In this document: piece by piece, positions 11,317-60,403 of the stretch
How positions within the stretch are numbered: position 1 is the first letter of the stretch
Layout of the letters: each line of letters begins with the position of its first letter
NCBI RefSeq assembly: GCF_007197775.1
Contig: NZ_CP041638.1
Span: 2,232,001 to 2,296,000 of the forward strand
Reading direction: 5' to 3'
Length of the DNA: 64,000 nt
Source of the DNA: Thalassotalea sp. PS06
Lineage (GTDB): Bacteria; Pseudomonadota; Gammaproteobacteria; Enterobacterales; Alteromonadaceae
Translations under genes and position numbers: made by a program
The notes under the pieces: model-generated
What the model was told of the DNA's origin: nothing
Seen by the model: only the letters and a program-made list of their open reading frames with translations
The model's database searches: none

Positions 11317-12070
11317 CTAGCTATTCAACCATTTATACATGACAAACGCATCGACATAGCCCTGCTCTGGATGGTTAAAGGCTTTCGGTAGTCTACCGGT
11401 AATGTTACAACCTAAGCGTTGCCAGAGGCGAACCGCAACTTGGTTAGAACTGGCAACAAAATTAAATTGCATGGCTTTATAACCCATCTCAACCGCGATG
11501 TTTTGCGAGTGTTCGCACATTTTCGTGGCCAGGCCTTTACCTCGAGCGGCAGTTGCCACCATGTAGCCGCAATTGCAAACATGACTACCTGGGCCTGCCT
11601 ATTATACCAATCACATTAAATTATTGCTCACTCAGTGAGAATTTAAAGGCTTTTAGACAAGGCTTTGATTGCAGAGAATGGTTATTCCATTGTCAAAATT
11701 AGTAACGCAGGATAAACGCCTTTAAAACTCACCCGGAGGGAGTTAGTGAGAGGCCCATTTACTACCCTATATTTCATTAATATAGAATGACTATATCAAT
11801 AAAATCTATGTTGTAACTGAACCTCGGCCCTAACTCTGAGTTGTGCACAAACTTAATGTGATTGGTATTAGTTTTAATATAATAGCTACCAAGAATGATA
11901 TTGTTTTCTATCGCCACAAAGGTTTTCGCAGGTTGTTCCATCCACACCGTATAAGCGCTTTGTTTGTCCATATCCCTTGAGTACGCATAGGTATCGCCGC
12001 GCGCAACAATATCCTGCATAAAGCCCCAGATACTATCAAAATCCTGTACTGTCGCTTCTCTGACAACCAT
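11317..12070 (-). pseudogene. GNAT family N-acetyltransferase, split by a 263-bp mobile element
   Basis: The 5' part (12070 down to about 11871) encodes MVVREATVQDFDSIW through ILGSYYIKTN. The 3' part (11598 down to 11317) encodes AGPGSHVCNCGYMV, then the acetyl-CoA-binding ARGKGLATKM and NQVAVRLWQRLGCNITGRLP. Together they make one ordinary GNAT acetyltransferase of about 160 residues. Between them sits the repeat element at 11605-11867 with TTA on both sides. Removing the element and one TTA leaves the halves one base out of frame: the second half is preceded by TAATAGGCA where an AATCAGGCA-like sequence would be expected, so one further base appears to have been lost. The 5' frame reads into the element and stops there. 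It lies 16 bp downstream of sbcC. Probably inactive. Confidence 0.85.
11605..11867 (+). mobile_element. MITE-like element copy 1 (263 bp), inside the GNAT gene
   Basis: Terminal inverted repeats taccaatcacattaa are perfect at both ends, with TTA duplicated at 11602-11604 and 11868-11870. It has internal palindromes (ctcactcagtgag, aactctgagtt) and no transposase gene. I define orientation by the end carrying ctcactcagtgag at left. It is near-identical to the copies at 27.6, 32.2, 37.1 and 60.1 kb. The 3-bp TWA duplication is of the type made by some IS5-group transposases; which transposase moves it is not visible here. Confidence 0.85.
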
Positions 12071-12086
12071 ACTCAACAACCTTATA

Positions 12087-15000
12087 TTACATATTTGACA
12101 AAGAAATCTTGCTGCCACCACCATCATTGCGTACATCAATACGCTGCGCCATCTGCTCTTTGAGCTCATTTACATGGGAGATAACCCCTATGGTGCGGCC
12201 GGTGGACTGTAAATCGATTAAGGTATTAATCGCCAATTGCAAAGACTCATGATCTAAACTGCCGAACCCTTCATCGATAAACAAGGTATCCAATTCGATA
12301 CCGCCGGAGCGTTGCTGTACAACTTCTGAGAGCGCAAGAGCTAAAGCCAAAGACGCCATGAAAGATTCACCACCGGATAAAGTCGCCACCGGGCGAACTT
12401 TGCCTGTGTGCGCATCATCAACGGCTAAATCTAACCCAGCAGTAACATTACGCTTTTGCTGCGCTTCAGCCTGTCGCACCAATCGGTACTGACCTTTGCT
12501 CATAATATGCAAACGCTGGCTGGCAATTGATAGCACGTTATCAAGAATATCCGCCAGCACAAAACGCTCCAGAGAGACTCTAACTTTGCCTTTACCGCTG
12601 GCCGCATTTGCCAACGTGCCTATCACTTCATAATCCTCTCGATGCTGTTCCTGTCGAGACTGATATTCAGCAATTCGTTTTAGAATATTGGTCGAATTAG
12701 CGACGGCAATTGATGCCTGATTCACTTCCTTTTCGTGGATCTGATATTGGTGATCGGTATTATCCAGGTTTGCCTGCAACGCCGATAAATCGGGAGCCGA
12801 TTTTTCCTTTAATCGCTCGGCCAGCAAGCTTAAGTTATCCGCCAGCGTTTTCGCTCTTTGCTGATATTCACTCACATCTTGCTGTAATCGACGCAGACTA
12901 AACTCATCAATACACGCTGCCAGGAAGGCATTTTGATCGTCAAAATGACTCGCGGTTAACTGTTCCTGCCATTGCGTTTCCAGTTGCTGCAGTTTTTGCT
13001 GCATTTGCTCAGCATGTTGCAGTTGGGTTGTTTTTTTACTGCCGATTGCACTTAAATCCTGAGAGACTTTCTGGAAATTTTGCTGAGCTTCCGCAAGCTG
13101 ACTATCTAATTTCGCTAATGATTGTTGGTTATCATTAACCGCTTTGTCCAATATCGATTTGTCGCGATATTGTTCTGGTAAGCCTTTTTCCGCATCCGCA
13201 AGTTTCATCGCAGCGGTTGCACTGTCGGCAGCAAGCGCTGGCAATGCTTGTTCAAGTTCCTGTAGATTGGCCATTAACCGCTGCAATTCTGTCTGCATCG
13301 CCCGCAACTTTTCGCCAGCCTTGATCAGTTGTTGCTGATCTTGTTTAAGGCCATTGATTATTTGACGATGCTGCGCCAGCGTTTGTTCTAATTCCTCTAG
13401 AGGTAAAATCCCGTTACCCTGCGTCTGCTTTTGTGAATCAATGAGCTGTTGTTGCTGCGCCTGACAAACGTTTAGCTCCTGTTCAATTTTTGCCAAATCT
13501 ACTTGAGCGTTTTGCAGCCCTTGCTGTTTTTCATCACGGCGGGCACGCTGTTCATCGATCATCGATTTATTGACAACCTGACTACCAGACGCGGCATCTA
13601 ATCGCGCCGGTGCCGGATGTTCTTTGGAGCCACAAACCGGGCAGGCATCGCCCGGATTAAGTTGCGCAGCAAGAATCGCCGCCTGCGAGCTGTGCCATTG
13701 AAACTCAATGGTCATCAAGGTTTTATTTTCTGTCTCAAGAAGGACTTGAGATTGTTTTACCAGGGTTTGGCGTTGGCCAAACTCTTGATTCAGGGACTGC
13801 TGCTTGTCGATTAACTGCTGTAACTGTCGACTCGCGGTGATTTGTTGCTCAAGCATTGCCTGGTGTTCTATCGCCGCCGGCATTTTATCGACATTGAGTT
13901 GCAGAGACTGAATTAACGCTTCACCTTTTTTCACTCGGCCTGAGTATTCTTCAATTTTAGCCTTGGCTTGTTCGATGTTCTGTCTGGCGCTTTGCTCTGC
14001 TGCTGATTTTTGCTGACATTCCTGCTTGATGACATCAAAGCCCGCCAGGGTTTCCTGGAAAATCACCAGCTTTTGCTGTTGATCTAACAAGGGCTGGCGT
14101 TGCTGATGCTGTTGCTGGGCGGCTTGTAACTGCTGTTCCGAGCGCTGCAAATTTTCAACCGTTTGCGCTTCTAGCTGCTCAGTCTCGGTAATCTGCGTTT
14201 GCAGTTGTTTGATATCTGCTTGCTGAGCCTGCAAGACCTTAAAGCCTGGTTCAATTCGAGCCGCTTGCTCAGAGAGTTGCAACTTATTGGCCTGCAGCGC
14301 CATCTCCTGCTGTCGCTGCAGATGTTCCGCCTGAGAGTGTTGTAATCGGGTATGCTCAGAAAAATCCTCGGCCAGTTTTTTCCCTTCCTGATATGCGACA
14401 ATGGCTTGTTGGCGCTGTGTTTCCAGTTGCTGTTTGCTTGCAGTTAACTCGGCTAATTTTTGTATCTGCTGTTCTTCTCGACTCTTAAGCTGAGATATTT
14501 CCTGAACCTCGGCTTCCTGCAACGCCTGATTAATCATCTCCTGCAGCTGTTCATAATCCCCTTTGATTAAGGCTGCTTTGTCTTTGAGAATTTGTTCGAT
14601 TTTTTGATAAATCTGAGTTTGGAATAAGGTTGATAGAATCGATTGCCGAGCATCCGATTTGGCCAACAGTAATTCTCGGAATTTGCCCTGTGGCAATACC
14701 ATGACCTGACGAAATTGGTCGACGGTTAAACCGATAATTTCGCGGATCATGTCGTCGGCATCTTTTTTCTTTTTCGCGACCAGCGTGACTTCAGTGCCAT
14801 CATCCAGGAACTGACAAAAATGAGCGCTAGCTTTTTCTTCGGTAAAGCCATCACCACGCTTGGCGGGACGCAATTGCGTTGGTGTACGAGTAATTCGATA
14901 ACGCTTATCACGAATGGTGAAGGTCAGTTCCACCTGAGTAAGTATGTCATCATTAGCGTTATCCGAGCGTACCGCAAAGTCCTTACGCGCTTCATCCGTG

Positions 15001-15167
15001 GTTTCACCGTACAATGCAAAACAAATAGCGTGCAAGATTGAGGACTTACCTGCCCCGGTTGGACCATCAATTAAAAACAGTGGCGCGTCACCAAGCTTTT
15101 GAAAATCAATCACCTGTTTATCGGCAAATGGACCAAATGCCTGCACCGAAAGGGTTAAAAACTTCAT
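12087..15167 (-). CDS. sbcC: Exonuclease subunit SbcC (SMC/Rad50-like ATPase)
   Basis: A 1026-residue ATPase partner of SbcD; the complex cleaves DNA hairpins and cruciforms and resects protein-blocked ends. Walker A is GPTGAGKSS near residue 36. Long Gln-rich coiled coils flank the zinc-hook CPVCGSKEHP near residue 509. The ABC signature LSGGES is near residue 928 and Walker B with LFIDEGFGSLD near 962. Length matches E. coli SbcC (1048). Its ATG overlaps the sbcD stop by 4 bp (ATGA), implying translational coupling. All motifs needed for activity are present. Confidence 0.97.
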   Translation of the reverse strand: MKFLTLSVQAFGPFADKQVIDFQKLGDAPLFLIDGPTGAGKSSILHAICFALYGETTDEARKDFAVRSDNANDDILTQVELTFTIRDKRYRITRTPTQLRPAKRGDGFTEEKASAHFCQFLDDGTEVTLVAKKKKDADDMIREIIGLTVDQFRQVMVLPQGKFRELLLAKSDARQSILSTLFQTQIYQKIEQILKDKAALIKGDYEQLQEMINQALQEAEVQEISQLKSREEQQIQKLAELTASKQQLETQRQQAIVAYQEGKKLAEDFSEHTRLQHSQAEHLQRQQEMALQANKLQLSEQAARIEPGFKVLQAQQADIKQLQTQITETEQLEAQTVENLQRSEQQLQAAQQQHQQRQPLLDQQQKLVIFQETLAGFDVIKQECQQKSAAEQSARQNIEQAKAKIEEYSGRVKKGEALIQSLQLNVDKMPAAIEHQAMLEQQITASRQLQQLIDKQQSLNQEFGQRQTLVKQSQVLLETENKTLMTIEFQWHSSQAAILAAQLNPGDACPVCGSKEHPAPARLDAASGSQVVNKSMIDEQRARRDEKQQGLQNAQVDLAKIEQELNVCQAQQQQLIDSQKQTQGNGILPLEELEQTLAQHRQIINGLKQDQQQLIKAGEKLRAMQTELQRLMANLQELEQALPALAADSATAAMKLADAEKGLPEQYRDKSILDKAVNDNQQSLAKLDSQLAEAQQNFQKVSQDLSAIGSKKTTQLQHAEQMQQKLQQLETQWQEQLTASHFDDQNAFLAACIDEFSLRRLQQDVSEYQQRAKTLADNLSLLAERLKEKSAPDLSALQANLDNTDHQYQIHEKEVNQASIAVANSTNILKRIAEYQSRQEQHREDYEVIGTLANAASGKGKVRVSLERFVLADILDNVLSIASQRLHIMSKGQYRLVRQAEAQQKRNVTAGLDLAVDDAHTGKVRPVATLSGGESFMASLALALALSEVVQQRSGGIELDTLFIDEGFGSLDHESLQLAINTLIDLQSTGRTIGVISHVNELKEQMAQRIDVRNDGGGSKISLSNM

Positions 15168-16366
15168 TCGCGCCCCTCCGTGATGGCTTTGGCCTGTTCA
15201 ACGGCATCTTTTAATATTTGCTGTTGACTATCCGTTAGCTCGTTGTCAGTAACCTGAGAGAAAAACTCGGTAAACACCTGAAGCTCGTCTTTTTTCAGAT
15301 CCCCGTGTGCGCCTGGCTCATCATCCTTATTGTTTGCTTGATAAAATTCAGAAAACTGCCTTCGCTCCATCTGTAAAACGTTGGGGTATACTTTGCGGAG
15401 CCTTGCCAATGGTTCCAATAAACTCTTTTTGTCGGTTAATCGAACTAGCAGATAATCATCAAAATCTGGATCATTCTTGCCGCTGGTCAATAAGTCTTGC
15501 AACTCCCCTTCCAAGACTCTGAGGTTGTGCCTTGCCTGCAATGGCAACAAGGTGATTTGAGCGGGTTTTCCCTGAGTAAGTTCGACCAAAGTTACGGATT
15601 TATTTTGTTTGTGTTCTGAAAACGAATATTTTAACGGTGAACCCGAATAACGGATATGTTCCGCGCCTTTATACTGCGGCCCATGCAAATGACCAAGAGC
15701 AACATAATCGAAATCTTTTAAAGGTTGCCAGGAGACTCTATCCGCACCACCAATGGCCAACGGACGCTCGGAATCTGATTCACTGGCGCCATCAATAAAA
15801 CAATGACTAATCAACACCGATGGCATGCTTGAGTGATGCTGTTGATGGTTCTTGAGGATTTGTTCTGCCATGAACGTATGCGCGTCATCATAACTTCTAA
15901 GAATCTTGTCCTCGCCATATTGCTCAGTAATTTGCTTAGCAAATGCTTCTCGAACCTCGACGGGATCATGGTATGGCAATCCGTAAAAAGCGACGCTGTC
16001 GCCACTTTGCCCTTCAATAATGACAGGCTCAGAAGCCTGTTGTAAATCCGCAAGAATATGCAGGTTTGCCAGGCGCATTTGACGAGCGCCAAACCGTAAT
16101 CGTTTTGCACTATCGTGATTGCCGCTGATCATAATCACCGGAATATTATGTTGTTGCAGATCCACCAGAAATCTGTCGAGAACATCAACGGCCTGAGCAG
16201 GAGGTACCGAGCGGTCAAAGATGTCACCAGCGACGATAATGGCATCAACCTTGTGGGATATCGCAAGTTCTTTTATCTGGGAAAGTACAAATTGCTGATC
16301 TTCAAGAAGAGAAATATTTTGGAAAAGTCGACCTATGTGCCAGTCTGATGTATGCAAAAATCGCAT
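15164..16366 (-). CDS. sbcD: Exonuclease subunit SbcD (Mre11-like nuclease)
   Basis: A 400-residue metallophosphoesterase nuclease of the SbcCD complex. The metal-binding motifs appear in order: HTSDWHIGR at the N-terminus, GDIFDR near residue 48, GNHDS near residue 82, SHCFIDG near 185 and GHLHGPQ near 225. The C-terminal capping region follows. Length equals E. coli SbcD (400). It is first in the sbcD-sbcC operon, with a 4-bp overlap. About 110 bp upstream are non-coding and should hold the promoter. Confidence 0.97.
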   Translation of the reverse strand: MRFLHTSDWHIGRLFQNISLLEDQQFVLSQIKELAISHKVDAIIVAGDIFDRSVPPAQAVDVLDRFLVDLQQHNIPVIMISGNHDSAKRLRFGARQMRLANLHILADLQQASEPVIIEGQSGDSVAFYGLPYHDPVEVREAFAKQITEQYGEDKILRSYDDAHTFMAEQILKNHQQHHSSMPSVLISHCFIDGASESDSERPLAIGGADRVSWQPLKDFDYVALGHLHGPQYKGAEHIRYSGSPLKYSFSEHKQNKSVTLVELTQGKPAQITLLPLQARHNLRVLEGELQDLLTSGKNDPDFDDYLLVRLTDKKSLLEPLARLRKVYPNVLQMERRQFSEFYQANNKDDEPGAHGDLKKDELQVFTEFFSQVTDNELTDSQQQILKDAVEQAKAITEGRE

Positions 16367-16477
16367 GCCAATCCCTTGTTGCTAACCTTGTGGCGTTTCG
16401 TATTTTGTCAGTCTATCACAATGTTTGAAATGACCTATAACCTTCCTTGGTGTTTAGGCAATAAATGTTTATTTATC

Positions 16478-17167
16478 TTAGTTCATGCGACTTTTGTTCA
16501 AACGTCTAGCGCTGATTAAGCCAGTGGTAAATAACAGCAAAAGTGTTAAAGATTTGGGTTCAGAAACATCTGAGGAAGAAGATGAAACTGAGGGTAGCCC
16601 CATCGCAACGATTTTTCCGACAAAAAATGAGTACCCGCCAGACTCTAAGTTATCGAAATCCAGTGCAAAATAGCTAGTTCGTATCTGACTTAAATTGTAA
16701 AAAAATTCTTCACTGAACAGTGGTATATCCAACTCACCCGCTTCACCTCGATAATAAGTAAAGTCCAACATCATAAAGTTAAATTCGTAACCTAAAAACT
16801 CGCCTGTAAATTCAGTCTCTGGGTTTCCTCCGGACCAAGCTTCGCCAATAAGTCTTTTTCTGTATTCCCCCCTAACTTCAATCATACTCGGCCTGTAATA
16901 AAATGGTGCAACGGTAAACGTATAACCATTAACCAAGAATTCAAAGTAGATCCCTTCCAATGATACTCTTTCTGGGTGCTCTTCCACATCAGTAGCCTCC
17001 GTATCGATTATCATATAACCACTGAAAGAGTCACCCTCACTGAAAACCAGATTTGCTTCATATTCTACCTGGTCGATATAGCCGATAAATTCGACTCTTA
17101 TGATTTCTGCATAACTATTAAATGAAAAACTACACACTAGAAAGGTAATAACCGCAAGAAAACGCAT
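16478..17167 (-). CDS. Secreted protein with PEP-CTERM-like sorting tail, function unknown
   Basis: 229 residues. An N-terminal signal peptide (MRFLAVITFLVCSFSFNSYA) is followed by a beta-rich, aromatic and acidic body with no domain I recognise. The C-terminus has the layout of an exosortase sorting signal: SEPKSLTLLLLF, then a short hydrophobic stretch, then ARRLNKSR. The usual VPEP is degenerate (SEP), so the assignment is moderate. If correct, it is processed by an exosortase encoded elsewhere and belongs to the exopolysaccharide-associated surface proteins. A serine run (SVSSSSSDVS) sits just before the motif. It stands alone, on the same strand as sbcD and 111 bp downstream of nothing coding. 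Confidence 0.6.
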   Translation of the reverse strand: MRFLAVITFLVCSFSFNSYAEIIRVEFIGYIDQVEYEANLVFSEGDSFSGYMIIDTEATDVEEHPERVSLEGIYFEFLVNGYTFTVAPFYYRPSMIEVRGEYRKRLIGEAWSGGNPETEFTGEFLGYEFNFMMLDFTYYRGEAGELDIPLFSEEFFYNLSQIRTSYFALDFDNLESGGYSFFVGKIVAMGLPSVSSSSSDVSEPKSLTLLLLFTTGLISARRLNKSRMN

Positions 17168-17408
17168 AATTAGTTCTACTGTATTTGTTTAAACCGATAC
17201 GGAAAAAGCAAACAGCGAACCAATTTTAAAAATGATCACCTATTCAGTAGCTTATAGTTACCACAAAGCAACTTACGTAATGCTTCGTAAAGTATTTTGC
17301 GACCTATCAGGCAGTTACGGGTCACTTTTGGATGTAAAACTTGCGAGACGGGCTGTTCTTTTCAAATGGTTGCTTTAAAATCCGTAAAAAAGATTTGTCG
17401 GTTTAGTC

Positions 17409-19429: not shown

Positions 19430-19448
19430 GGAAATGAACCGCATCTTT

Positions 19449-19959
19449 GATTTCCTGTCGAAGCAGGAAATGACGTTAGTTGGCTGATGACTATTCAATA
19501 GCTCGTCATCTCCATGTAAATGGAGATCTAAAAGCACATTGCTGTGATTTCCTGTCGTAGCAGGAAATGACGTTGGATAGGTTTTCACGTTTCAATAACC
19601 CGTCATCTCCATGAAAATGGAGATCTAAGAACGCATGGCTGTGATTTCCTGTCGTAGCAGGAAATGACGTTAGTTGATTGATGACTATTCAATTGCTCGT
19701 CATCTCCGTGTAAATGGAGATCTAAGAGCACATTGCTGTGATTTCCTGTCGAAGCAGGAAATGACGTTAGTTGGCTGATGACTATTCAATAGCTCGTCAT
19801 CTCCATGTAAATGGAGATCTAAAAGCACATTGCTGTGATTTCCTGTCGTAGCAGGAAATGACGTTGGATAGGTTTTCACGTTTCAATAACCCGTCATCTC
19901 CATGAAAATGGAGATCTAAGAACGCACGGCTTTGATTTCCTGTCGGAGCAGGAAATGAC
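19449..19959. repeat. 97-bp tandem array of paired REP-like hairpins (BIME-like)
   Basis: Hairpin A (atttcctg-tcgwag-caggaaat) starts at 19449, 19546, 19643, 19740, 19837 and 19934, a constant spacing of 97 bp. Between successive A copies sits hairpin B (ctccat-gtaa-atggag). The reverse complement of A begins cgtcatttcctg, and B begins cgtcatctcc, so each unit is a pair of inverted REP-like palindromes with a shared cgtcat head. Units 1 and 4 are identical and units 2 and 5 nearly so, giving a 291-bp super-period. It lies between the convergent ends of the secreted protein gene and the S9 peptidase gene. Confidence 0.9.
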
Positions 19960-20040: not shown

Positions 20041-20044
20041 ATCA

Positions 20045-27593: not shown

Positions 27594-27866
27594 TACCAAT
27601 CACATTAAATTACTGCTCACTCAGTGAGAATTTAAAGGCTTTCAGGCAAGGCTTTGATTGCAGAGATTGATCGCTCTATTGTAAAAATAAGCCAAAATCA
27701 GGAATGCAGGATAAACGCCTTTAAAACTCACCCGTGGGGAGTTTATCAGAGGCCCATTTACGGCCCAATATTTCAGTAATATAGAATGACTATATCAATG
27801 AAATCTTTGTTGTAACTGAACCTTTGCCCTAACTCTGAGTTGTGCACAAACTCAGTGTGATTGGTA
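27594..27866 (+). mobile_element. MITE-like element copy 2 (273 bp), directly downstream of sdaA
   Basis: Same ends as the other copies (taccaatcacattaa at left, gtgtgattggta at right), about 10 bp longer in the middle and somewhat diverged. TAA occurs at right (27867-27869) and at left two bases away from the end (27589-27591), so the target duplication is imperfect. No coding capacity. Orientation as copy 1. Confidence 0.8.
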
Positions 27867-29155: not shown

Positions 29156-31816
29156 TTATTTTTTCGCAGCTTTCTTAGCCGGTTTTTTCGCGGTTTTTTT
29201 CTTGGTTTGCTCTTCGACCCATTGGCCATCAACAAACTTAGCGATCCAGCCGGTAGCCTTGCCATCCAGTTCTGTCATCACGTATTGCTCTTTGGTTTTA
29301 CGTGAGAAACGAACGACTGATGGGTTACCGTCTGGGTCTTGCTGTGGTGCGTCAGCCAGATAATAGAATTTCGGAGAAATTCTGTCTCTGAAACGCGCCA
29401 GCTCAGCCACTAACGGTGCTCGCGTTTCCCGTGATTTCGGGAAAGTACTTGCTGCTAAGAATATCCCAGCCGCACCATCACGAAGCTTGAAGAAGGCATC
29501 GGATTTCTCACAACGAAGCTCAGGTAAATCTACCGGATCTTCTTTTGGTGGCGCCACTTCACCATTCTTCAGCAATTTACGGGTGTTTTTACAATCGCTG
29601 TTAGTACAATCAAAGTACTTACCAAAACGACCATTTTTCAGTTCCATATCAGAACCACAACGGTCACATTCGATCAGCGGACCATCATAACCTTTAATCT
29701 TGAACTCGCCCTTCTCAACCTCAAAGCCATCACAAGTCGGGTTGTTACCACAAACATGAAGTTTGCGTTTTTCGTCAATCAGGTAGCTATCCATGGCAGT
29801 GCCGCATTTCTTACAGCGACGCATTGCCATTAACGCTTCGGTTTCACGATCTTCACCAATGACGTTTTCAGCTTCTTCACCTGGAGTCAGGTTCATAGTC
29901 TGGGTACAACGCTCTTTTGGTGGCAGGTTATAGCCACTACAACCTAAGAACACACCTGTTGATGCCGTGCGAATTGCCATTTTACGGCCGCAATTTGGAC
30001 AATCAATATCGGTCAGTACTGGCTCATTAGGTTGCATACCGCCGTCTTCGACAGTTTTATCTGCTTTTCCTAACTGTTCAGTAAAGTTCTCATAGAACTG
30101 GCTCAGAACCTGTTTCCAGTAGGCTTTATCGTGAGCGATATCATCAAGTCTATCTTCCATTTTCGCAGTGAAGTCATAACTCATCAGATCTTCAAAGCTT
30201 CCGGATAAACTATCAGTAACGATTTCACCCATTTTCTCAGCATGGAATCGCTTACCTTCAAGACGCACATATCCGCGATCCTGAATGGTAGAAATGATTG
30301 ACGCATAGGTCGATGGACGACCAATGCTGCGCTTTTCCAGCTCTTTAACTAATGAAGCTTCACCGAAACGTGCCGGAGGTTTGGTAAAATGCTGGCTTGG
30401 TTCAAGATGCTTTAAGGTAATCGGTTCGCCAACCTGTAAATCAGGCAAATGCGTATCTTTGTCACTTTTCGATAAATGCGCGTGAACTTTGGTCCAACCG
30501 TCAAAACGCATAACACGTCCTTTGGCTTTTAAATCAAAGTTTGCAGCTGAAACCGTGATTGTCGATACATCATAACGAGCCGCTGTCATTTGACAGGCAA
30601 CAAACTGACGCCAGATTAAGTCATAAAGTCTACGGGCATCCGCTTCCATATCATTCAGGAATGCAGACTCAACCTTAACATTTGAAGGGCGAATCGCTTC
30701 GTGCGCTTCTTGGGCATTAGCTTTGGCACCGTAGGCTTTCGGTTTTTCCGGTAGGTAATTAGCACCGAAATTATCGGTGATGTACTGACGACAACTATCA
30801 ACCGCATCTTTTGATAGGTTGGTTGAGTCGGTACGCATATAAGTAATGTGACCCGCTTCATATAAGCGTTGTGCAAGACCCATTGTACGTTTTACGCCAA
30901 AACCAAGGCGTGTGCTTGCCGCCTGTTGCAACGTTGAAGTAATAAATGGTGCAGAAGGTGAGCTCTTCGAAGGTTTGTCTTCACGCTTACTCACCTGGTA
31001 GCTGGCGTTTTGTAGAACGCTCAATGCGGCATTCGTCTGAGCTTCATTAACTGGCTTAAACGCTTTACCGTCCTGGTGAGTTACCTGCAGCTGCAGCGCT
31101 TGCTGCGCCTCAGTTAAGGTATCCGCATGCACTTCCCAGAACTCTTCTGGAACGAACGCCTTGATCTCCCGCTCGCGCTCAACGACTAGTTTAACGGCCA
31201 CCGACTGTACACGCCCTGCTGATAACCCGCGGGCGATTTTTTTCCAGAGCAAGGGGCTGACCATAAAGCCTACAACACGGTCGAGAAAACGCCGCGCCTG
31301 TTGCGCATTTACGCCATTCATATTCAGCTCGCCAGGTTGCTTAAACGCTTCCTGAATGGCCGATTGTGTAATCTCGTTAAAAACAACGCGGCGGAACTTA
31401 TCGTCATCGCCACCAATGATCTCTTTTAAATGCCAGGCGATCGCTTCTCCCTCGCGATCCAAATCCGTTGCGAGATAGACCATATCGGCTTTATCGGCCA
31501 AAGTTTTTAATTCGTTTACGACTTTTTCTTTGCCAGGCAATACTTCATATTTCGCCGCCCAATCTTTTTCTGGGTTAATCCCCATTCGATTAAACAGTGC
31601 GACTTTATCGCGTTTCGCTTTATATATGGCTTTTTGCTCCGGCGTCATTTTGCGTACTTCTGCCGGTGATTTGGTTGGTGCTTTTTTGCCGCTTCCACTG
31701 GTGGGCAAGTCGCGCACGTGGCCGACACTGGATTTAACGATGAAATCCTTACCTAGATATTTATTGATTGTCTTTGCTTTCGCTGGTGACTCGACTATGA
31801 CCAGAGACTTTGCCAT
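29156..31816 (-). CDS. topA: DNA topoisomerase I
   Basis: 886 residues. It relaxes negative supercoils by a type IA mechanism. The TOPRIM domain begins at the N-terminus ([19 protein letters not shown]) and includes [12 protein letters not shown]. The active-site tyrosine lies in ITYMRTDS near residue 326. Three Cys4-type zinc ribbons follow ([32 protein letters not shown]). The C-terminus ends in a Lys/Ala-rich tail ([15 protein letters not shown]) that should aid DNA or RNA polymerase contact. Length is close to E. coli TopA (865). Confidence 0.97.
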
Positions 31817-32172
31817 AAATTCTTACTTTCCTGTGGACAGGCCCATTGCGCAGTTTTTTTGACTGCCTGCTATATGTAACGAATAACGCCTATATAAGAT
31901 CACCCAACGAGCTTTTAAAGGGGTGACGGCCTAATATATTGTTTCAACGTTAAATTATTTTTTCAAATTGCGAATTGCTATTAGGTATATATGTAATTTT
32001 TGCCACTGACAAGCAAATATTTCGTTCTTATATCAAAGGAGGTCAGCACAAAAATAGCAATTTCACCATCTGGATGGCTATTGATCAGCCATCATAATCA
32101 AAGATAGCGGTAAGGGAAAAGAAGTTTTTTAACTTATTCTTTCGATTGGTGTTTTTTTGAGCCAAAGGGTAA
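31817..32172. other. 356-bp upstream region of topA without a gene
   Basis: AT-rich sequence holding the topA promoter region; on the minus strand tatata near 31895 is a possible -10 element. No coding sequence or structured RNA recognised. It ends at a copy of the MITE-like element. Confidence 0.35.
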
Positions 32173-32435
32173 TACCAATCACATTAAGTTTGTGCACAAC
32201 TCAGAGTTAGGGCAGAGGTTCATTTACAACATAGATTTTATTGATATAGTCATTCTATATTAATGCAATATAGGGCCGTAAATGAGCCTCTGGTAAACTC
32301 CCTACGGGTGAGTTTTAAAGGCGTTTATCCTGCGTTACTGATTTTGACAATGGAGTAACCATTCTCTGCAATCAAAGCCTTGTCTAAAAGCCTTTAAATT
32401 CTCACTGAGTGAGCAATAATTTAATGCGATTGGTA
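32173..32435 (-). mobile_element. MITE-like element copy 3 (263 bp), inverted orientation
   Basis: Terminal repeats taccaatcacattaa (left) and ttaatgcgattggta (right), flanked by TAA on both sides (32170-32172 and 32436-32438). It lies in the opposite orientation to the other four copies, between topA and the Big-domain lipoprotein gene. No coding capacity. Confidence 0.85.
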
Positions 32436-32450
32436 TAATTCCGCAAACAA

Positions 32451-36675: not shown

Positions 36676-37595
36676 CTACGCAGTTATCAAATAAGCCGTT
36701 TCAACCAAACTACTGACACTAAGTGAACGTCTGGCGAATTTATTCCCGATTAAATCTCGTTGTTTGCGCTGGTTAATTTGAAAATCGACAAACAATTCTT
36801 CGATCTCACTCTTGCTCACACTAAAAGGAGGCCCTTGTAGCTCTTGTTGTGGATATTCCAGAGTAAATAACAATACTCTGGTACCGTTAGCCATAAACCT
36901 TTTTAAATGCTCAACATAGCGTTTACGCATTGCTTCGGGTAATGCGATAAGGGCGGCTCGGTCATAAATGAAATCAATCGAACCGGTGAATTCAGGCTCA
37001 ACGGCGAAAAAATCCCCCTGATAGATACTCACAGGTGGATTGGGTGAAATATACAAACTCCCCTGCTCTGTTTTCACTTTCGATACCTCAAGGTTATTTT
37101 CCTGATAAAACTGTTCACAGGCTAATTCGCTTAGCTCGACACCAGTAATACCAATCCCATTAAATTATTGCTCACTCAGTGAGAATTTAAAGGCTTTTAG
37201 ACAAGGCTTTGATTGCAGAGAATGGTTATTCCATTGTCAAAATCAATAACGCAGAATAAATGCCTTTAAAACTCACCCGTAGGGAGTTAGTGTGAGGCCC
37301 ATTTACTGCCCTATATTTCATTAATATAGAATGACTATATCAATAAAATCTATATTGTAACTGAACCTCTGCCCTAACTCTGAGTTGTGCACAAACTTAG
37401 TGGGATTGGTATAACCCTGCCAAATTGCGCCAGGTAAAGCATATCCATGCTCTTCCCGCACAGAGGAACAAGCATATGGCAATTCTCGGCTTGACTGATT
37501 GATGGTAGTAAGTCTGCTAACCACGGATGAATGTCGTCTTGATGCCAGCCGATATGATCATTTTCCCAGCATTGCTGCCAGAACTCTTTCTCCAT
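36676..37595 (-). pseudogene. tpm: Thiopurine S-methyltransferase, split by a 263-bp mobile element
   Basis: The 5' part (37595 to about 37415) encodes MEKEFWQQCWENDHIGWHQ and VPLCGKSMDMLYLAQFGR. The 3' part (37148 to 36676) encodes TGVELSELACEQFYQENN, the YQGDFFAVEP segment and YDRAALIALPEAMRKRYVEHL. These match bacterial TPMT (Tpm), a SAM-dependent methyltransferase implicated in selenium/tellurium methylation. The MITE-like element at 37149-37411 separates them. Removing the element plus one TAA rejoins the frame as FGR-VTGVELSEL and gives 217 residues, the normal family length. As it stands the 5' frame ends inside the element, so the gene is probably inactive; a GTG at 37077 could at most yield a C-terminal fragment. 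Confidence 0.9.
37149..37411 (+). mobile_element. MITE-like element copy 4 (263 bp), inside tpm
   Basis: Flanked by TAA duplications (37146-37148 and 37412-37414). Its two terminal repeats carry the same substitution, taccaatcccat instead of taccaatcacat, at both ends. Otherwise near-identical to copies 1 and 5. No coding capacity. Confidence 0.88.
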
Positions 37596-53899: not shown

Positions 53900-55729
53900 A
53901 TGAAAAAACTGACTTCCACCCTCGCCCTGCTCGCATTGTCCACATCGATGCATACCTTAGCCGATGAAACTCAAGATGGGCCCACCGTATTGCTCTGGGG
54001 CGACACCCATTTACATACCAACTTATCCCCTGATGCGTATGTGAATAAAAACACCAACGTAGATCCGGATACCGCCTATCGCTTTGCCAAGGGCATGCCC
54101 GTAATGTCAGACGATACCCGGGCAAAAGTTCGCTTGCATACGCCATTAGATTTTCTCGCCGTTACCGATCATGCCGAATATGCCGGAGTACCTAAGATGC
54201 TCTGGGATGGCGATGAGGAGCTGGCCAATACCAAAACCGGTGCGCGCTACATTGAAATGATCAAAAACGGTAAAGGCACGGATGTTTTCTTCGAGCTCAT
54301 TGGTGATGTAAATGCATCGAAACCAAATAAAGAGCTGCACAGCCAGCGAGTTAGGGATACGGTCTGGAAGCAGATATACGAAGCTGCGGAAAAACATAAT
54401 GAACCGGGAAAATTCACTACGTTAATCGGCTGGGAATGGAGTTCATTGCCAAACGGTGCCAACCTCCACCGTGTGGTGTTTATGCCTGAAGGCGGCGATG
54501 TCGCAGGACAATTTACCCCATACAGCGCCTTTGAAAGTGATCGCCCCGAAGATTTATGGAATTGGCTGGAAAAAACCGCTGAGGAAACCGGCGCTAATTT
54601 CGTTGCCATTCCCCATGGCTCGAATATCTCCAACGGTCTGATGTTCCAGAACGTCGACAGTGACGGCAATGCCATTACGGCCGAATATGCGAAAACCCGG
54701 ATGCGCTGGGAGCCTGTTATTGAAATTACCCAAATCAAAGGCGATTCAGAAACCAAAGGCACGTTATCTCCTGGCGATGAATTTGCCGATTTTGAAACCT
54801 ATGAGCATTTGATTAAAACCGGTGATGGCGAAGAAGAAGATCATGGCGAAATGGATGAAGCCGCCAATTATGTGAGAACCGCTTTAATGCGAGGAATGGA
54901 AATCGAGCAGAAAGTTGGTGTTAACCCATACAAAGCCGGAGTGGTAGGTTCAACCGATGCCCATACCGGCCTTGCCAGTGCCGAAGAAGATAACTTCTGG
55001 GGTAAATTTTCCTTAGATTCAAAGCCTGAAGGTAAGGATTTAGAAGGTGCCCCCGGTGTTACCGGTTGGGATATGTCAGCGTCTGGCTTGGCTGCAGTCT
55101 GGGCCAAAGAAAATACCCGTGAAGCCATTGTTGATGCGTTTAAACGTAAAGAAGTTTATGGCACCTCAGGGCCGCGCATAAAACTTCGCGTTTTTGCAGG
55201 GTATGAGTTTAAAGACAAAGATGCAGAATCCGCCGACCTTGCCAATATCGGCTATGACAAAGGCGTACCCATGGGCAGTGATTTACCGCCAGCAGGTAAG
55301 CGCGACAAACCGCAATTATTGATTCAAGCGGTAAAAGATCCAGTCGATGCCAACCTTGATCGGGTACAGGTGGTAAAAGGCTGGGTTGATGACTCCGGTA
55401 AAGCCCAGGAAAAGGTGTATAACATTGTCTGGTCAGGTGACCGGAAAATGGCTAGTGATGGCAGCATCGATGCGGTGGGTAACACGGTCGATATGGAAAC
55501 TGGCTTGTATACCAATGATATTGGCACCGAACAACTAACGGCGGTTTGGGAAGATAAAGACTTCGACCCTAAAGAGCGGGCTTTTTACTATGTCCGGGTT
55601 CTACAAATCCCAACACCGCGCCATACCTTGTATGACTCTATCGCGCTGGGCAAAGAACACCCGGAGGAATACGATGCGGTTATTCAGGAACGGGCTTACA
55701 GTTCGCCTATATGGTACACCCCGGAATAA
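53900..55729 (+). CDS. DUF3604 family secreted PHP-type metal-dependent hydrolase
   Basis: 609 residues. A signal peptide (LTSTLALLALSTSMHTLA) is followed by a PHP-like metal site: LWGDTHLHTNLSPDAY near residue 34, AVTDHAEY near 90, GWEWSS near 178, IPHGSNIS near 237 and GSTDAHTG near 352. These histidines and acidic residues are arranged as in PHP-fold phosphoesterases and polymerase-associated domains. The family is annotated only as DUF3604; its substrate is unknown. It should act in the periplasm or outside. Downstream genes follow after 119 bp. Confidence 0.85.
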   Translation: MKKLTSTLALLALSTSMHTLADETQDGPTVLLWGDTHLHTNLSPDAYVNKNTNVDPDTAYRFAKGMPVMSDDTRAKVRLHTPLDFLAVTDHAEYAGVPKMLWDGDEELANTKTGARYIEMIKNGKGTDVFFELIGDVNASKPNKELHSQRVRDTVWKQIYEAAEKHNEPGKFTTLIGWEWSSLPNGANLHRVVFMPEGGDVAGQFTPYSAFESDRPEDLWNWLEKTAEETGANFVAIPHGSNISNGLMFQNVDSDGNAITAEYAKTRMRWEPVIEITQIKGDSETKGTLSPGDEFADFETYEHLIKTGDGEEEDHGEMDEAANYVRTALMRGMEIEQKVGVNPYKAGVVGSTDAHTGLASAEEDNFWGKFSLDSKPEGKDLEGAPGVTGWDMSASGLAAVWAKENTREAIVDAFKRKEVYGTSGPRIKLRVFAGYEFKDKDAESADLANIGYDKGVPMGSDLPPAGKRDKPQLLIQAVKDPVDANLDRVQVVKGWVDDSGKAQEKVYNIVWSGDRKMASDGSIDAVGNTVDMETGLYTNDIGTEQLTAVWEDKDFDPKERAFYYVRVLQIPTPRHTLYDSIALGKEHPEEYDAVIQERAYSSPIWYTPE

Positions 55730-55848
55730 CCGCTAAATTTAAATTAACGTAATCGCTATTTAAGCTGTAAGCACGACACACACACTTGCTGGACACATAG
55801 ACAAAACCATGGTCCGGCCTGGAATTCATCGAGACAATAATAAGGCAG

Positions 55849-56712
55849 ATGATAGTGAGACTACTTCGTGAACCCCTATTCCATTTTCTGTTACTGGGAG
55901 GCCTCATTTACTGGGCCTACTCAGCGTTTAGCGAAGATGACTCCGAAACCATTGTTATCGACAAAGGTAACCTGCTTACTTTTATGCAGTATCGCTACCA
56001 GGCCTTCAATGCCAATCAGGCTGAACAAAACCTGGCCAACCTTCCAGATGACCAATTGCAACGCTTAATTGATGAGTATGTGCGTGAAGAAGCTTTGTAT
56101 CGCCAGGCATTAGCACTGAACCTGGACAAAAATGATTACATCATCAAAAAACGCCTGATTCAAAAAGTAGAATATATTTCCGAAAACTTTGAAGCACCAG
56201 CATTACCCGAGGATGAACAGGTACTCATCAACTATTTCAATGGCAATCAGAAAAACTACCTGCAACCGGATTACATCACCTTTTCCCATCAATTTTTCTC
56301 CCACCAAAACACCGATGTTTCATTACCGGCGCAGCAACGGGCGCTGCAAGCTCTGGATCATTTAAACAATGGTGATGCCGGTTTAACCGCTGTCAAACAA
56401 GACTTATTTCTCTATAACCGTCATTACGCCGAGCGCCCTCAATCTTTGATTAGTAGTCACTTCGGGGATGCATTTGCAGAGCAATTGTTTACCCAAACCA
56501 CAATCAATGAAGCTGTATGGCAAGGCCCGTTCGAATCACCTTATGGCTGGCACGTGGTAAAGGTATATAACCGCCAGCCAGCGAAGTATCCGGAATTTAC
56601 CGAAGTGAAAGATAAGGTTGCAGAAGACTATTTACGCGACATTCAGCAACAACAAAAACAACAATCTCTAAATGATGTTGTGGCGCAATACGAGGTTAAA
56701 CTCGACCTGTGA
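55849..56712 (+). CDS. Membrane-anchored parvulin-type peptidyl-prolyl isomerase
   Basis: 287 residues. One N-terminal membrane segment (PLFHFLLLGGLIYWAYSAF) is followed by a periplasmic helical region (PDDQLQRLIDEYVREEALYRQA, as in SurA/PpiD chaperone arms) and a rotamase-2-like domain near residues 130-255 with GDAFAEQLF and GPFESPYGWHVVKVYNR. Gene end overlaps the HupE gene by 4 bp (GTGA). It may fold the receptor or the HupE partner, a role inferred from context only. Confidence 0.85.
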   Translation: MIVRLLREPLFHFLLLGGLIYWAYSAFSEDDSETIVIDKGNLLTFMQYRYQAFNANQAEQNLANLPDDQLQRLIDEYVREEALYRQALALNLDKNDYIIKKRLIQKVEYISENFEAPALPEDEQVLINYFNGNQKNYLQPDYITFSHQFFSHQNTDVSLPAQQRALQALDHLNNGDAGLTAVKQDLFLYNRHYAERPQSLISSHFGDAFAEQLFTQTTINEAVWQGPFESPYGWHVVKVYNRQPAKYPEFTEVKDKVAEDYLRDIQQQQKQQSLNDVVAQYEVKLDL

Positions 56713-57767
56713 AAATCTTTACAAACATTGCGCAGCTGATGTTATATTTCAAACAATTTTGCTCGCTTTTGCTGGTGATCTCGATACTTTGGTTTAGCAC
56801 AGGTAACCCGGCTTTTGCCCATGAATCGCGCCCGCTGTATATAAAGATTATTCAGGAAGAGGCAAATACCTATACCCTTACCTGGCGAACCCCATTAAGC
56901 ATTACCTGGGATAATCAACCGAAAATACAAATACCAGATGTCTGTACACCAAACGTTGCAAAATCATCCTCCATTCAGGTTGGGATAAAGCAGGTATCAA
57001 TTCGTTGCCAAGGGCTCACTGCTGATCACCAGTTTTCCGTTATCTATCCTATCGCCAACCCATCGGTAAGCACGCTAATCGACGTGCAGTTGCTCGATAA
57101 GGAAAAACGAACCATTCTTCTTGGACCGGAACAACAATCCTTTGGGTTATTTAACGACAATGTTTCCGATAAGACCTGGCTGGCCTATGGAACCTTGGGC
57201 GTTAAACATATCTGGCTCGGTATCGATCACCTGCTATTTATCGGCTGTCTGGTTTTCTTTGCCAGAGGCTGGAAAAAGCTGTTTTGGACAATCACAGGTT
57301 TTACCCTGGCCCATTCCGTCACCTTAGGGCTGGCAAGCCTTGATGTTATTCGCGTAAACATCCTTCCCATTGAGGCTATCATTGCCCTGTCTATCATGTT
57401 TTTGGCCGTCGAGTTAACAAGAGAAAAAAATACCACCCTCACCTGGCGCTACCCGGCCATTGTTGCCATTAGTTTCGGCTTGCTGCATGGCTTTGGATTT
57501 GCATCAGTACTGGCTGACATTGGGTTACCTGAGAATGACAGGTTGATAAGCTTACTGTTCTTTAATCTCGGCATCGAAGTGGGACAATTATTGTTTATCG
57601 CAGCACTGTTCGCACTTGTCTGGATAGGTAAGAAAATTGCCACAAACAAACCAGCTGGCTCTACTGTGGAGGAAGTTTTAGCGGTTAGAAATTACTATCT
57701 TATCGCCGCTTATCTTATTGGGCCATTGGCTGCTTTTTGGTTCTGGCAGCGTCTGGCCCAATTTTAA
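56709..57767 (+). CDS. HupE/UreJ-type membrane protein
   Basis: 352 residues from a GTG overlapping the parvulin stop. A signal-like N-terminus (LLLVISILWFSTGNPAFAH) is followed by a periplasmic beta-rich domain of about 130 residues, then six to seven membrane helices forming the HupE/UreJ domain. Conserved His/Asp positions are GIDHLLFIG, FTLAHSVTLGL, GLLHGFGFASVL and NLGIEVGQLL. HupE and UreJ are linked to nickel transport for hydrogenase and urease, but no hydrogenase or urease gene lies here. This extended form is common near DUF3604 genes and its cargo is unproven. Confidence 0.87.
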   Translation: MKIFTNIAQLMLYFKQFCSLLLVISILWFSTGNPAFAHESRPLYIKIIQEEANTYTLTWRTPLSITWDNQPKIQIPDVCTPNVAKSSSIQVGIKQVSIRCQGLTADHQFSVIYPIANPSVSTLIDVQLLDKEKRTILLGPEQQSFGLFNDNVSDKTWLAYGTLGVKHIWLGIDHLLFIGCLVFFARGWKKLFWTITGFTLAHSVTLGLASLDVIRVNILPIEAIIALSIMFLAVELTREKNTTLTWRYPAIVAISFGLLHGFGFASVLADIGLPENDRLISLLFFNLGIEVGQLLFIAALFALVWIGKKIATNKPAGSTVEEVLAVRNYYLIAAYLIGPLAAFWFWQRLAQF

Positions 57768-57780
57768 GCAAGGCTTTTCT

Positions 57781-59436
57781 TTATTCGAAAATGATTTTTT
57801 GTTGAGGTGTTTCTGGTAGCTTTTCCAGATAATACTGCTCAATTTCGTTGCGCTTTAATTTTAGCGTCGGCGTTAACAACTCATTCTCAGGTTTCCAGGA
57901 ATGCTGACAAACCAGCAGATAATCCAGGCGCTGATGGCTTTCCAACTGACCATTAACTTCCGACAACAATTGCTCTAGCAAAGCAGTTTGCTCGGCTTGT
58001 GCCTGCGGCGCATTTTCACTGAGAACCACTAAACCAATCGGTTGCTTCATGCCTGAACCGATGACACAGGCCTGCTCAAGCGCGCTATTGCTAAGCAATA
58101 AACGTTCAATCGGTACTGGCACCACATATTTGCCTTTGGCGGTTTTAAACTGCTCTTTAATTCGGCCGATAATTTTAAAATCACCGTCCGCTGTCAATTC
58201 ACCCTTATCGCCAGTATGGAACCAACCATCAGTAAAGGCCTGCTCTGTATTTTCCGGATCAAGATAGTAGTCCTCGAAAACCGCATCTCCGCGGATCATG
58301 ATTTCCTGGGCTTCAGAAAGCTTCATTTCAACGCATGGTAACGCTTTGCCAATGGTACCGATGCGATTTTCATCAAAGGGTAAATTACCGCAGGACAAGC
58401 CTGAGGTTTCGGTCATCCCCCACCCTTCGCCGATATTCATACCTAATTTTTGATACCAACGTAACAACTCTTCTGAGACCGGCGCTGAACCGCAGCCAAA
58501 TACCTGAACCTGATCCAATCCCAGCTTGGTACGAATTTTCTTGGCGACAATATTGCCCAGTATTGGCAGGGACAATAACAGGCTAAGCTTTTTCTGCGGC
58601 ATGGCTTTGAGGATTTGCGCCTGGAATTTCACCCACAGTCTTGGCACAGACAAGAAGAAGGTTGGACGAGCGTGTTGCACGTCATCAATAAAGGTATCTA
58701 GGTTGTCGATAAAGAATACTTCCAAGGGTAACTCGTAGGCGATACCTTCAATCAGACCGCGCTCAGTAATATGCGCCAACGGCAAGTACGATACCACACG
58801 TTGTGGTCCGGCATTGCCAATGCCAATAATATCAACGGCACCTTGAGCGGCGGACGCAATATTCTTAAAGGTAATGACCACACCTTTAGGGTTACCGGTT
58901 GTTCCTGAGGTGTAACAAATGGTCATGGTGTCGGTAAGCTCAGGCGATGCGATATCTTGCAGAGGTTCATTGGCACGAATCAGCTCATCCCATACCTGAT
59001 TATTAGGGCCAGAAAAACCACTGACATCGGGATAAGGCATAGAAATAGTCACAAGTTCAGCACTTAGAACATTTTCAAGTGGCTGATAATCATCAAGCCG
59101 ACCAACAAACAAGGCTTTCATGTCACTGTGGTCAATCACATAGCCTATGGTTTTCTCACCTGCTGTCGCATAGATAGGTACCGAAACCATGCCAGCCATC
59201 ATAATGGCCAAATCAGCGATAAACCAATGGGCGCAGTTTTTCGAAATAATGCCAACCCGGTCTCCCGCAGCCAGACCCTGACTTTGCATCGCTGCAGCCA
59301 TTTTACGAGCCTGCTGTTCAACATCGTTAAAACTGTATTGTTGCCAATTGCCCGCGACCGGTTGATTTAAAAACGTTTTATTCGGTTGCTGCTGCGCATG
59401 CTGTAAAAACCGATGCAGGGAGGATTGATAAGCCAT
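57781..59436 (-). CDS. Long-chain acyl-CoA synthetase (AMP-forming)
   Basis: 551 residues from the second ATG (59436), because aaagga is 6 bp before it and directly abuts the first ATG (59442). It activates fatty acids to acyl-CoA through an acyl-adenylate. Motifs: TICYTSGTTGNPKGVV (P-loop) near residue 170, GWGMTETSG near 325, DGWFHTGDKGEL near 405 and IIGRIKEQFKTAKGKYV near 425, whose final lysine region supports catalysis. Related to the FadD15/long-chain group by its eukaryote-like gating region. Convergent with the HupE gene, 13 bp apart. Confidence 0.93.
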   Translation of the reverse strand: MAYQSSLHRFLQHAQQQPNKTFLNQPVAGNWQQYSFNDVEQQARKMAAAMQSQGLAAGDRVGIISKNCAHWFIADLAIMMAGMVSVPIYATAGEKTIGYVIDHSDMKALFVGRLDDYQPLENVLSAELVTISMPYPDVSGFSGPNNQVWDELIRANEPLQDIASPELTDTMTICYTSGTTGNPKGVVITFKNIASAAQGAVDIIGIGNAGPQRVVSYLPLAHITERGLIEGIAYELPLEVFFIDNLDTFIDDVQHARPTFFLSVPRLWVKFQAQILKAMPQKKLSLLLSLPILGNIVAKKIRTKLGLDQVQVFGCGSAPVSEELLRWYQKLGMNIGEGWGMTETSGLSCGNLPFDENRIGTIGKALPCVEMKLSEAQEIMIRGDAVFEDYYLDPENTEQAFTDGWFHTGDKGELTADGDFKIIGRIKEQFKTAKGKYVVPVPIERLLLSNSALEQACVIGSGMKQPIGLVVLSENAPQAQAEQTALLEQLLSEVNGQLESHQRLDYLLVCQHSWKPENELLTPTLKLKRNEIEQYYLEKLPETPQQKIIFE

Positions 59437-59699
59437 TGGCATTCCTTTAAGTGAAATTTTTTTAATTATATAAACACATTACCGTTAAATCATGGTCTTA
59501 GACAAGAGAAGATGAGGATGATTGCGTCTGGCGCACCTCATCGTTGGAAAACTGGGAGTACATGCCCATGCAAGGCAACAGGAAAAGGTTATTGTTAAGA
59601 CGCGGTAGAATCGGTATTTATGGTGGTGATGGCTTTATTAATTGCATCTTGCTGCTAAGTTTGAGAGAGTCGCACTCTTTTTAATGTATCTCGTATTTC

Positions 59700-60110
59700 A
59701 TGACCCTGGCCGACCTTTGCACCCGCAGCACCCAAATCCTATGTGTTATCTTGTTGATAAGCTTTACCTATCGAGACCCTAACTTCCTCGATGCTGCTTA
59801 TTCAGCAGTGCTTACTATCATTCCTTTAGCGGCAAGTAATTACCTGGCGCTACTTTATAAAAAACCGGGCAAAAACAAAGAATTTATCTGGCAATCCGGT
59901 TTCATAGGATGTTTTCTCGCCAATGTGTTTCTGATTATTTACGTGATCTACACTCAATTTTTGTTTATTCAAGGTGCCGAAAGCGTGACCATCGCCGGAT
60001 TTTACTGGGTAATGTTTGTTTACGGCGCGACCCTACTCTACTCTCCTGTAGGTTTCTTAACAGGTGCAGCATTGTCCGGTTTATATCTTGCCGTTCGAAA
60101 TCGGGCTTGA
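59700..60110 (+). CDS. Hypothetical membrane protein, 136 residues
   Basis: Four likely membrane segments: about residues 10-24, 32-52, 68-90 and 100-130. The sequence is basic in the inner loops (KKPGKNKEF, RNRA). I do not recognise a family. No strong ribosome-binding site precedes the ATG. A weak hairpin (agagt-cgc-actct) lies at 59666-59678. A copy of the MITE-like element begins 29 bp after the stop. Confidence 0.6.
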   Translation: MTLADLCTRSTQILCVILLISFTYRDPNFLDAAYSAVLTIIPLAASNYLALLYKKPGKNKEFIWQSGFIGCFLANVFLIIYVIYTQFLFIQGAESVTIAGFYWVMFVYGATLLYSPVGFLTGAALSGLYLAVRNRA

Positions 60111-60139
60111 TATCTGGATTGCTAAACTCATTCAAATAA

Positions 60140-60400
60140 TACCAATCACATTAAATTATTGCTCACTCAGTGAGAATTTAAAGGCTTTTAGACAAGGCTT
60201 TGATTGCAGAGAATGGTAGTTCCATTGTCAAAATCAGTAACGCAGGATAAAGGCCTTTAAAACTCACCCGGAGGGAGTTAGTGAGAGGCCCATTTACTGC
60301 TCTATATTTCATATATAGAATGACTATATCAATAAAATCTATGTTGTGACTGCACCTCTGCCCTAACTCTGAGTTGTGCACAAACTTAGTGTGATTGGTA
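60140..60400 (+). mobile_element. MITE-like element copy 5 (261 bp)
   Basis: Terminal repeats taccaatcacattaa and ttagtgtgattggta are flanked by TAA at 60137-60139 and 60401-60403. Two bases shorter than the 263-bp form. Same orientation as copies 1, 2 and 4. No coding capacity. Confidence 0.87.
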
Positions 60401-60403
60401 TAA

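Follow-up and report, generated by a model that had tools for sequence, protein, structure and literature searches.

What a short repeat found five times in one stretch of bacterial DNA is, how it reached its sites and what keeps its shape are the questions raised by the 64,000-bp stretch considered here (hereafter the window), which comprises bases 2,232,001-2,296,000 of the closed, one-contig genome (3,795,229 bp) of Thalassotalea sp. PS06. A first-pass annotation, made from the letters alone, had described the repeat as resembling a miniature inverted-repeat transposable element (MITE), and the five copies indeed start where it had placed them (Table 1). Its MITE reading is supported by the results below, while it was incomplete regarding the spread of the family across the order, the covarying double-hairpin interior and the target duplications, which differ between branches. 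The explanation that we favour, with modest confidence, is a non-autonomous MITE-type transposon of a superfamily resembling ERIC (enterobacterial repetitive intergenic consensus), with hairpin DNA under selection in the active copies.

Almost the whole length of a copy is occupied by a fold in which the two ends form an outer stem and two inverted hairpin arms, A and B, are joined by a CC-N3-GG linker. For copy 1, the z-scores of this fold on the two strands are -6.5 and -8.3. The structure was obtained by folding 42 representatives, largely the same copies as those used for the covariation analysis. A covariance model of arm B (R1), built from 19 sequences (13 from the host family and six from Pseudoalteromonas, Vibrio and Photobacterium), also matches arm A on the opposite strand, both in all five window copies (E = 1.8e-9 to 9.5e-7) and in nine of nine copies from chromids or plasmids (33.7-66.3 bits, E = 1.1e-14 to 1.6e-6); as a control, the self-palindromy of arm B on the opposite strand does not exceed 17.9 bits. 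Hence, the element is coarsely dyad-symmetric, with two inverted ends each made up of a terminal repeat and an arm.

Covariation was scored for 35 copies in a MAFFT alignment that had not been fitted to the structure. Here, the score amounts to 0.251 compared with 0.052-0.085 for slid pairing partners, and 313 cells are changed on both sides of a pair compared with 97 in shuffles, while none of 500 shuffles reached any of the observed covariation values. With arm B alone (19 sequences), 24 of 38 pairs display change on both sides, at a score of 0.314 versus 0.047-0.079. The respective values for a model-fitted alignment of 118 arms, 36 of 38 pairs and 0.633 versus 0.060-0.147, are biased to the structure by construction; these arms stem from 73 loci, at which a cut-off of 1e-4 gave 118 matches that were assigned by position, 75 to arm B and 43 to arm A. 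Most base pairs of the two-armed fold are kept in many genera by compensatory, nearly pure Watson-Crick change.

Mobility of the element can be read from its boundaries and from sites that lack it. Measured from TACC to GGTA, the window copies end in terminal inverted repeats (TIRs) of the sequence TACCAATC, with copy 4 showing TACCAATCCCATTAA instead of TACCAATCACATTAA, and at 261-273 bp they are too small for a transposase gene. Four of them are flanked by perfect 3-bp duplications (TTA or TAA), as had been annotated, copy 2 being the one without an exact duplication. Among 63 full-length copies, which come from the examined part of the genome and are biased toward places with ends, 46 show an exact 3-bp duplication (23 TTA, 21 TAA, one TCA and one TGA), and in a further 12 the flanking triplets are one base apart. 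Copy 4 splits a gene resembling thiopurine S-methyltransferase (TPMT; window positions 36676-37595), the reading frame of which is continuous over the joined flanks with one TAA retained. A screen for interrupted genes over the copies yielded eight candidates versus six in a mismatched-flank control and is thus uninformative beyond copy 4.

Empty sites were searched for with joined flanks; a first query gave no relative across the junction, whereas a second one found them for genome position 735575. At this position the element, with flanks TAA/TAT, lies between two tandem genes, which by eye look like putative FAD monooxygenases of ubiquinone synthesis. Eleven relatives in the genus match there, and the element is absent by covariance model from all ten that were examined, while the own locus scores 93.6 bits with the same model. 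The two aligned genes are spaced by 29-90 bases in nine of the ten relatives, and in one relative (L287) 265 unaligned bases, which are not the element, lie between them. Contigs of T. mangrovi and T. litorea, where poorly conserved flanks blurred the comparison, gave three presence/absence differences and one shared insertion. The elements are mobile and insert at TNA, mostly TTA or TAA, with a 3-bp duplication; as regards mobility, the MITE reading is borne out by the 46 of 63 duplications, the split gene and the site empty in ten of ten relatives.

The high copy number that had been predicted for the whole genome is confirmed by end counts, by similarity search and by the 63 full copies. 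With up to two mismatches, the end motif occurs at 222 genome sites compared with 14 for a reversed-motif control, and TWA followed by the exact end motif occurs 146 times compared with none in the control, which excludes a chance origin. The similarity search returned 144 candidates, of which 40 were scored, all 40 at 93-100% identity. Within the window, copies 2-5 are 95.5, 95.5, 94.7 and 86.5% identical to copy 1, copy 2 representing a 273-bp subfamily with 10 additional bases within arm B. Besides full copies, there are short forms of 25-199 bp, which seem to have lost part of their interior by deletion between short direct repeats. Of 19 such forms, read by eye, 14 keep the exact 3-bp duplication, as would be expected of local deletions. 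As a separate observation, two adjacent copies in the own genome, at 1873937-1874209 and from 1874213, have one TTA in common, the second copy being truncated.

The family extends well beyond the genus. Its own genus contains matches in 12 of 15 genomes, the own genome included; in the host family, blastn with one copy matched 79 of 196 genomes in 26 of 52 genera, and across the order the arm B model matched 154 of 394 genomes in 43 of 115 genera, under 17 family labels as counted by eye. The order-wide search was run with stricter filters, by which some weak matches were lost. Thalassotalea itself stands in Colwelliaceae in the NCBI taxonomy. Size is kept as well, with 78 of 82 distinct copies from loci of many genomes measuring 259-264 bp under a filter that admitted about 250-290 bp. 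A 24-base piece of the repeat recovered 65 stretches, and all named contigs among them belong to T. mangrovi or T. litorea, in a search from which records very close to the window's genome may be absent. Six plasmid records carry a match, all of them typed as non-mobilizable, and a search for carriage by phages gave no match. Judged from these searches, the family is old and spread order-wide through many related bacterial families, which appears to be new. The element was not found among the matches listed for open-access literature on MITEs and palindromic repeats of Thalassotalea, Colwellia, Alteromonas and Pseudoalteromonas, and searches with the end sequences as text, or with three-way junction plus MITE, gave unrelated open-access literature among the matches listed. 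At one locus (L056), about 50 nt are inserted in arm B of a copy that measures 314 bp, and a 313-bp match lies about 4 kb off on the same contig.

Two branches can be distinguished by their ends. Copies ending in TACCA display the 3-bp TNA duplication in 33 of 60 cases and TA on both sides in none, whereas of those ending in TACCC, 18 of 22 have TA on both sides and one of 22 a TNA duplication. Past the first five bases, the two end consensus sequences agree at only 4 of 20 positions without gaps; kinship of the branches is concluded from their shared arms and layout. Two end types with different duplications therefore point to two cutting geometries on one conserved body.

The obvious system for comparison is ERIC, described in passages of PMC10969869, PMC2759123 and PMC2267715 as a repeat of about 127 bp that forms one stem-loop in E. 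coli, has a TA duplication and is found in Enterobacteriaceae and Vibrionaceae. ERIC, or IRU (RU-1), repeats are small, gene-less and mainly intergenic, and their movement by a transposase has been proposed but is unproven (passages of PMC2229807). The window element is likewise small, gene-less, mainly intergenic and highly paired, with inverted ends and many copies (compare the same passages of PMC2229807), and the TA duplication of the TACCC branch is like the one reported for ERIC in part of PMC2759123. Past its first five bases, the TACCC end consensus also agrees with the termini of a single E. coli ERIC copy, at 13 and 11 of 20 positions (permutation p = 0.00012 and 0.004, respectively). 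An ERIC consensus matched 5376 of 5426 E. coli genomes. In contrast to the 127-bp ERIC with its single long stem-loop (PMC2267715, in the part concerned), the element measures about 263 bp and has two inverted arms, and the window copies combine TACCA ends with TNA duplications instead of TATACCC ends with a TA duplication. TACCA ends match the ERIC copy at 5 of 20 positions, which is chance level, and arm model R1, run unfiltered with E up to 10, matched nothing in this ERIC copy. On these comparisons, the window element would be classed as ERIC-like, not as ERIC. A 'reductive divergence' of ERIC in Vibrionaceae was reportedly proposed by Zo in 2011. Among the Vibrionaceae forms of ERIC there may be those copies in Vibrio and Photobacterium that are of the TACCC type and about 260 bp long. 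Passages of PMC2267715 describe such forms for V. cholerae, with a 103-nt model.

The movement of ERIC-like repeats is a long-standing question, to which the present family adds a relative-in-kind that is longer, sampled widely and covarying strongly, with two branches differing in duplication. A more novel reading, which we consider unlikely, is that of a structure-guided mobile DNA: the folded ends, as cruciform or single strand, would be recognised by a possibly host-resident enzyme, the body would have been kept order-wide while the cut changed between TNA and TA, and ERIC would be a reduced, one-armed relative.

Resemblance to other known systems is partial. Tourist and PIF-Harbinger MITEs as well as the IS5-family IS1031/IS427 relatives make 3-bp TNA or TWA duplications. 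The window element shares the 3-bp TNA duplication with them, but its ends are unlike those known for these families, and the cognate transposase family of IS1031/IS427, DDE_Tnp_1 (PF01609), gave no match in the closed genome. RUP and Correia (NEMIS) elements are also small, paired intergenic repeats with TA at their ends, as stated in passages of PMC2229807, but are only about 106-158 bp long (passages of PMC2229807 and PMC2267715). RUP moreover has a proposed IS630 partner, whereas the own genome gave no match to DDE_3 (PF13358).

The placement and the mismatches of the copies bear on whether the pairing is kept for the sake of DNA or RNA. According to a naive open reading frame (ORF) call, 36 of the 63 full copies lie between tandem, 14 between convergent and 12 between divergent genes, with one unclassed, and none lies inside an intact ORF, a method that is blind to split genes such as that around copy 4. 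By coordinates, ten of the 63 abut a gene end exactly, the duplicated triplet being the stop codon. With 62 of 63 copies between genes and these ten at gene ends, the fold could work in RNA, copies in untranslated regions being transcribed and the paired RNA being processed or altering transcript stability, so that host selection would keep the structure. This alternative, to which we give a low probability, could draw on effects of ERIC on Yersinia mRNA and on RNase III processing of Neisseria elements (passages of PMC10969869 and PMC2229807), as well as on mismatch types that favour one strand. Against it stands the scarcity of G-U on both strands: of 4221 arm cells in model orientation, 3698 are Watson-Crick, 63 G-T, 162 A-C and 298 other, the 42-copy alignment giving counts in the same direction. 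This is unlike what is known of structured RNAs, and the constraint is therefore read as acting on DNA hairpins. Further points against a role in RNA are that the fold is kept across lineages while single copies lose pairs, that the placement counts come from an ORF call to which the gene split by copy 4 is invisible, and that, of the described structured RNA families in Rfam, none reached its threshold for the element. DNA rather than RNA secondary structure may hence be under selection, and the family is a possible case in which compensatory evolution marks a selected secondary structure of DNA. On the strand of reference orientation (R), arm A has 131 G-T to 39 A-C and arm B 7 to 44; mismatches thus lean to G-T on the strand where the arm is the 5' arm, and with respect to the arm unit this is one and the same strand for arms A and B.

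Pairing could also persist with no selection at all if templated mutation, that is, hairpin-directed correction of one arm by the other during replication, restored it and covariation were a mutational by-product. The changes are mostly from Watson-Crick to Watson-Crick with few G-T intermediates, as templated repair predicts; yet for mismatches to stay near 10-15% over long times, conversion would by our estimate have to run several-fold above point mutation, while in the 63 own-genome copies the paired consensus is departed from on a single side 219 times and on two sides just 12 times. Of the single-sided departures, 108 are rare and 58 of the rare ones break a pair; of the two-sided ones, six restore a pair. 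Fast arm-to-arm conversion thus fails to explain the long-term pairing. In addition, there are fixed differences between the two ends in the own-genome consensus, which shows that transposition does not routinely involve conversion. Templated mutation is therefore judged distinctly improbable, and we infer that the long-term pairing is due to selection in source lineages.

No transposase had been annotated in the window, and none was detected among the 40 ORFs scanned against Pfam, out of 58 of at least 100 aa; the 18 outside the scan are mostly overlapping or short and include a 1577-aa ORF at 3685-8418. The search suggested by the first-pass annotation, for a full insertion sequence with the same termini, was negative in those parts of the own genome that it covered. 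Within the 1.18 Mb examined, ten rows were obtained for TIR pairs at a distance of 350-4000 bp, not all of which were read. The two read fully represent neighbouring or deleted MITEs and not an insertion sequence, and two 507-bp rows from T. mangrovi are a MITE with foreign sequence in arm A, too small for a transposase gene. Among the other rows, two are one and the same place, those of the own genome have at least one end in a catalogued copy, and the model assigns one end of a T. mangrovi row (L119) to a full copy. At 22 places where ends flank a non-MITE interior, no partner bounding a long gene was present among the ends within 1.5 kb, and of four further places of this kind, three turned out to be deletion forms and the fourth (3309037) a full copy of 274 bp. 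Allowing at most one mismatch, 96 ends were listed for the genome, 86 with a near partner (33 in full copies, 51 with a second end within 330 bp and two with GGTA plus duplication), five with none and five outside the examined DNA; of the latter, two have coordinates that differ by 263 bp, a third falls within L222 and two were unread. Of the transposase families, DDE_Tnp_1 gave 0 matches and DDE_3 no match in the own genome, other families not having been searched. A closed genome with 222 end-like sites and no recognisable partner makes the search for the enzyme concrete: it would be a gene common to positive genomes that differs between those with TACCA and those with TACCC ends.

An ordinary MITE, that is, deletion derivatives of a now-lost insertion sequence with the arms as its subterminal ends, would equally be short and gene-less, with inverted ends, duplications and many copies, and a fusion of two long transposon ends without cargo would account for the dyad layout. 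Such an origin is also favoured by a form that seems to have been copied with cargo inside one arm. A deletion MITE of one lineage, however, should neither keep its size and fold over 43 genera nor compensate internally, and the searches made in the closed genome, the only one covered, revealed no source element. We therefore see in it a possible but doubtful explanation.

According to the favoured explanation, the non-autonomous transposon with selected hairpin DNA, a copy represents two inverted ends of about 130 bp back to back, each consisting of one strand of the outer repeat and a hairpin arm of about 98 nt. The fold would be needed as hairpin or cruciform DNA for mobilisation, presumably by a trans-acting enzyme encoded elsewhere, and would for this reason be selected in active source copies, while copies, once inserted, would degenerate and shed parts of their interior by deletion between short direct repeats. 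Several observations weigh against this explanation. The structure was folded from the same sequences in which it was scored and is hence favoured over its slid versions, the sequences in the covariation and branch counts are related and not independent, and the number of pairs with change on both sides (52 of 110 versus 38 in shuffles) is less striking than the score. At E ≤ 1e-4, 75 elements gave an arm B match but just 43 of them an arm A match as well, and the mismatches favour one strand by about 2.6 to 1. A 53-bp deletion form is present at two sites with one base different, and as a variant at a third; it may have moved, or the same deletion may have recurred. In T. mangrovi, about 244 bp of unrelated sequence lie inside arm A of the 507-bp form at two sites, so that copying and movement together with the cargo seem to have taken place in an element whose arm tip is disrupted, which slightly lowers confidence in both the favoured explanation and the structure-guided reading. 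Mobilisation in trans, finally, can only be inferred, because no transposase with these ends was found.

Table 1 Features of the repeat family in the window (window positions unless a T. mangrovi locus is given)
Feature	Position	Strand	Remarks
Copy 1	11605..11867	-	263 bp; flanks TTA/TTA; arm B model match 11629-11745, arm A 11727-11842
Copy 2	27594..27866	-	273 bp; flanks ATA/TAA; arm B match 27618-27744, arm A 27726-27841
Copy 3	32173..32435	+	263 bp; inverted relative to the other copies, reference orientation (R); flanks TAA/TAA
Copy 3, outer stem, 5' strand (terminal inverted repeat)	32172..32203	+	From alignment and structure
Copy 3, arm A	32204..32300	+	Related to the reverse complement of arm B; model R1 reverse-strand match 32198-32313, E = 1.8e-9
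Copy 3, linker joining the arms, centre of dyad symmetry (CC-N3-GG)	32301..32307	+	From alignment and structure
Copy 3, arm B	32308..32405	+	Most widespread arm across the order; model R1 match 32295-32411, 119.9 bits
Copy 3, outer stem, 3' strand	32406..32436	+	From alignment and structure
Copy 4	37149..37411	-	263 bp; flanks TAA/TAA; within the TPMT-like gene
Split TPMT-like gene, 3' piece	36676..37077	-	Pfam PF05724 positions 97-216 of 218
Split TPMT-like gene, 5' piece	37413..37595	-	Pfam PF05724 positions 1-59 of 218
Copy 5	60140..60400	-	261 bp; flanks TAA/TAA; arm B match 60164-60280, arm A 60262-60375
507-bp form	L075 6723-7229 and L084 4570-5076 (T. mangrovi)		458/507 positions alike; TAA on both sides of each

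With regard to the neighbourhood of the copies, genes resembling sbcC and sbcD (12087-16366, assigned by Pfam), which correspond to a hairpin nuclease, are followed just downstream by copy 1, and copy 3 is located upstream of a topoisomerase I gene (29156-31816, by Pfam). Both the SbcC/SbcD-like and the topoisomerase I enzymes act on cruciforms or supercoils, but with n = 2 this proximity is probably a coincidence. Just past copy 5, the Rfam cspA thermoregulator model matches at 60579-61005 on the minus strand. Elsewhere in the window, positions 19448-19959 hold about 5.3 tandem copies of a 97-bp unit, each unit displaying two small hairpins by eye.

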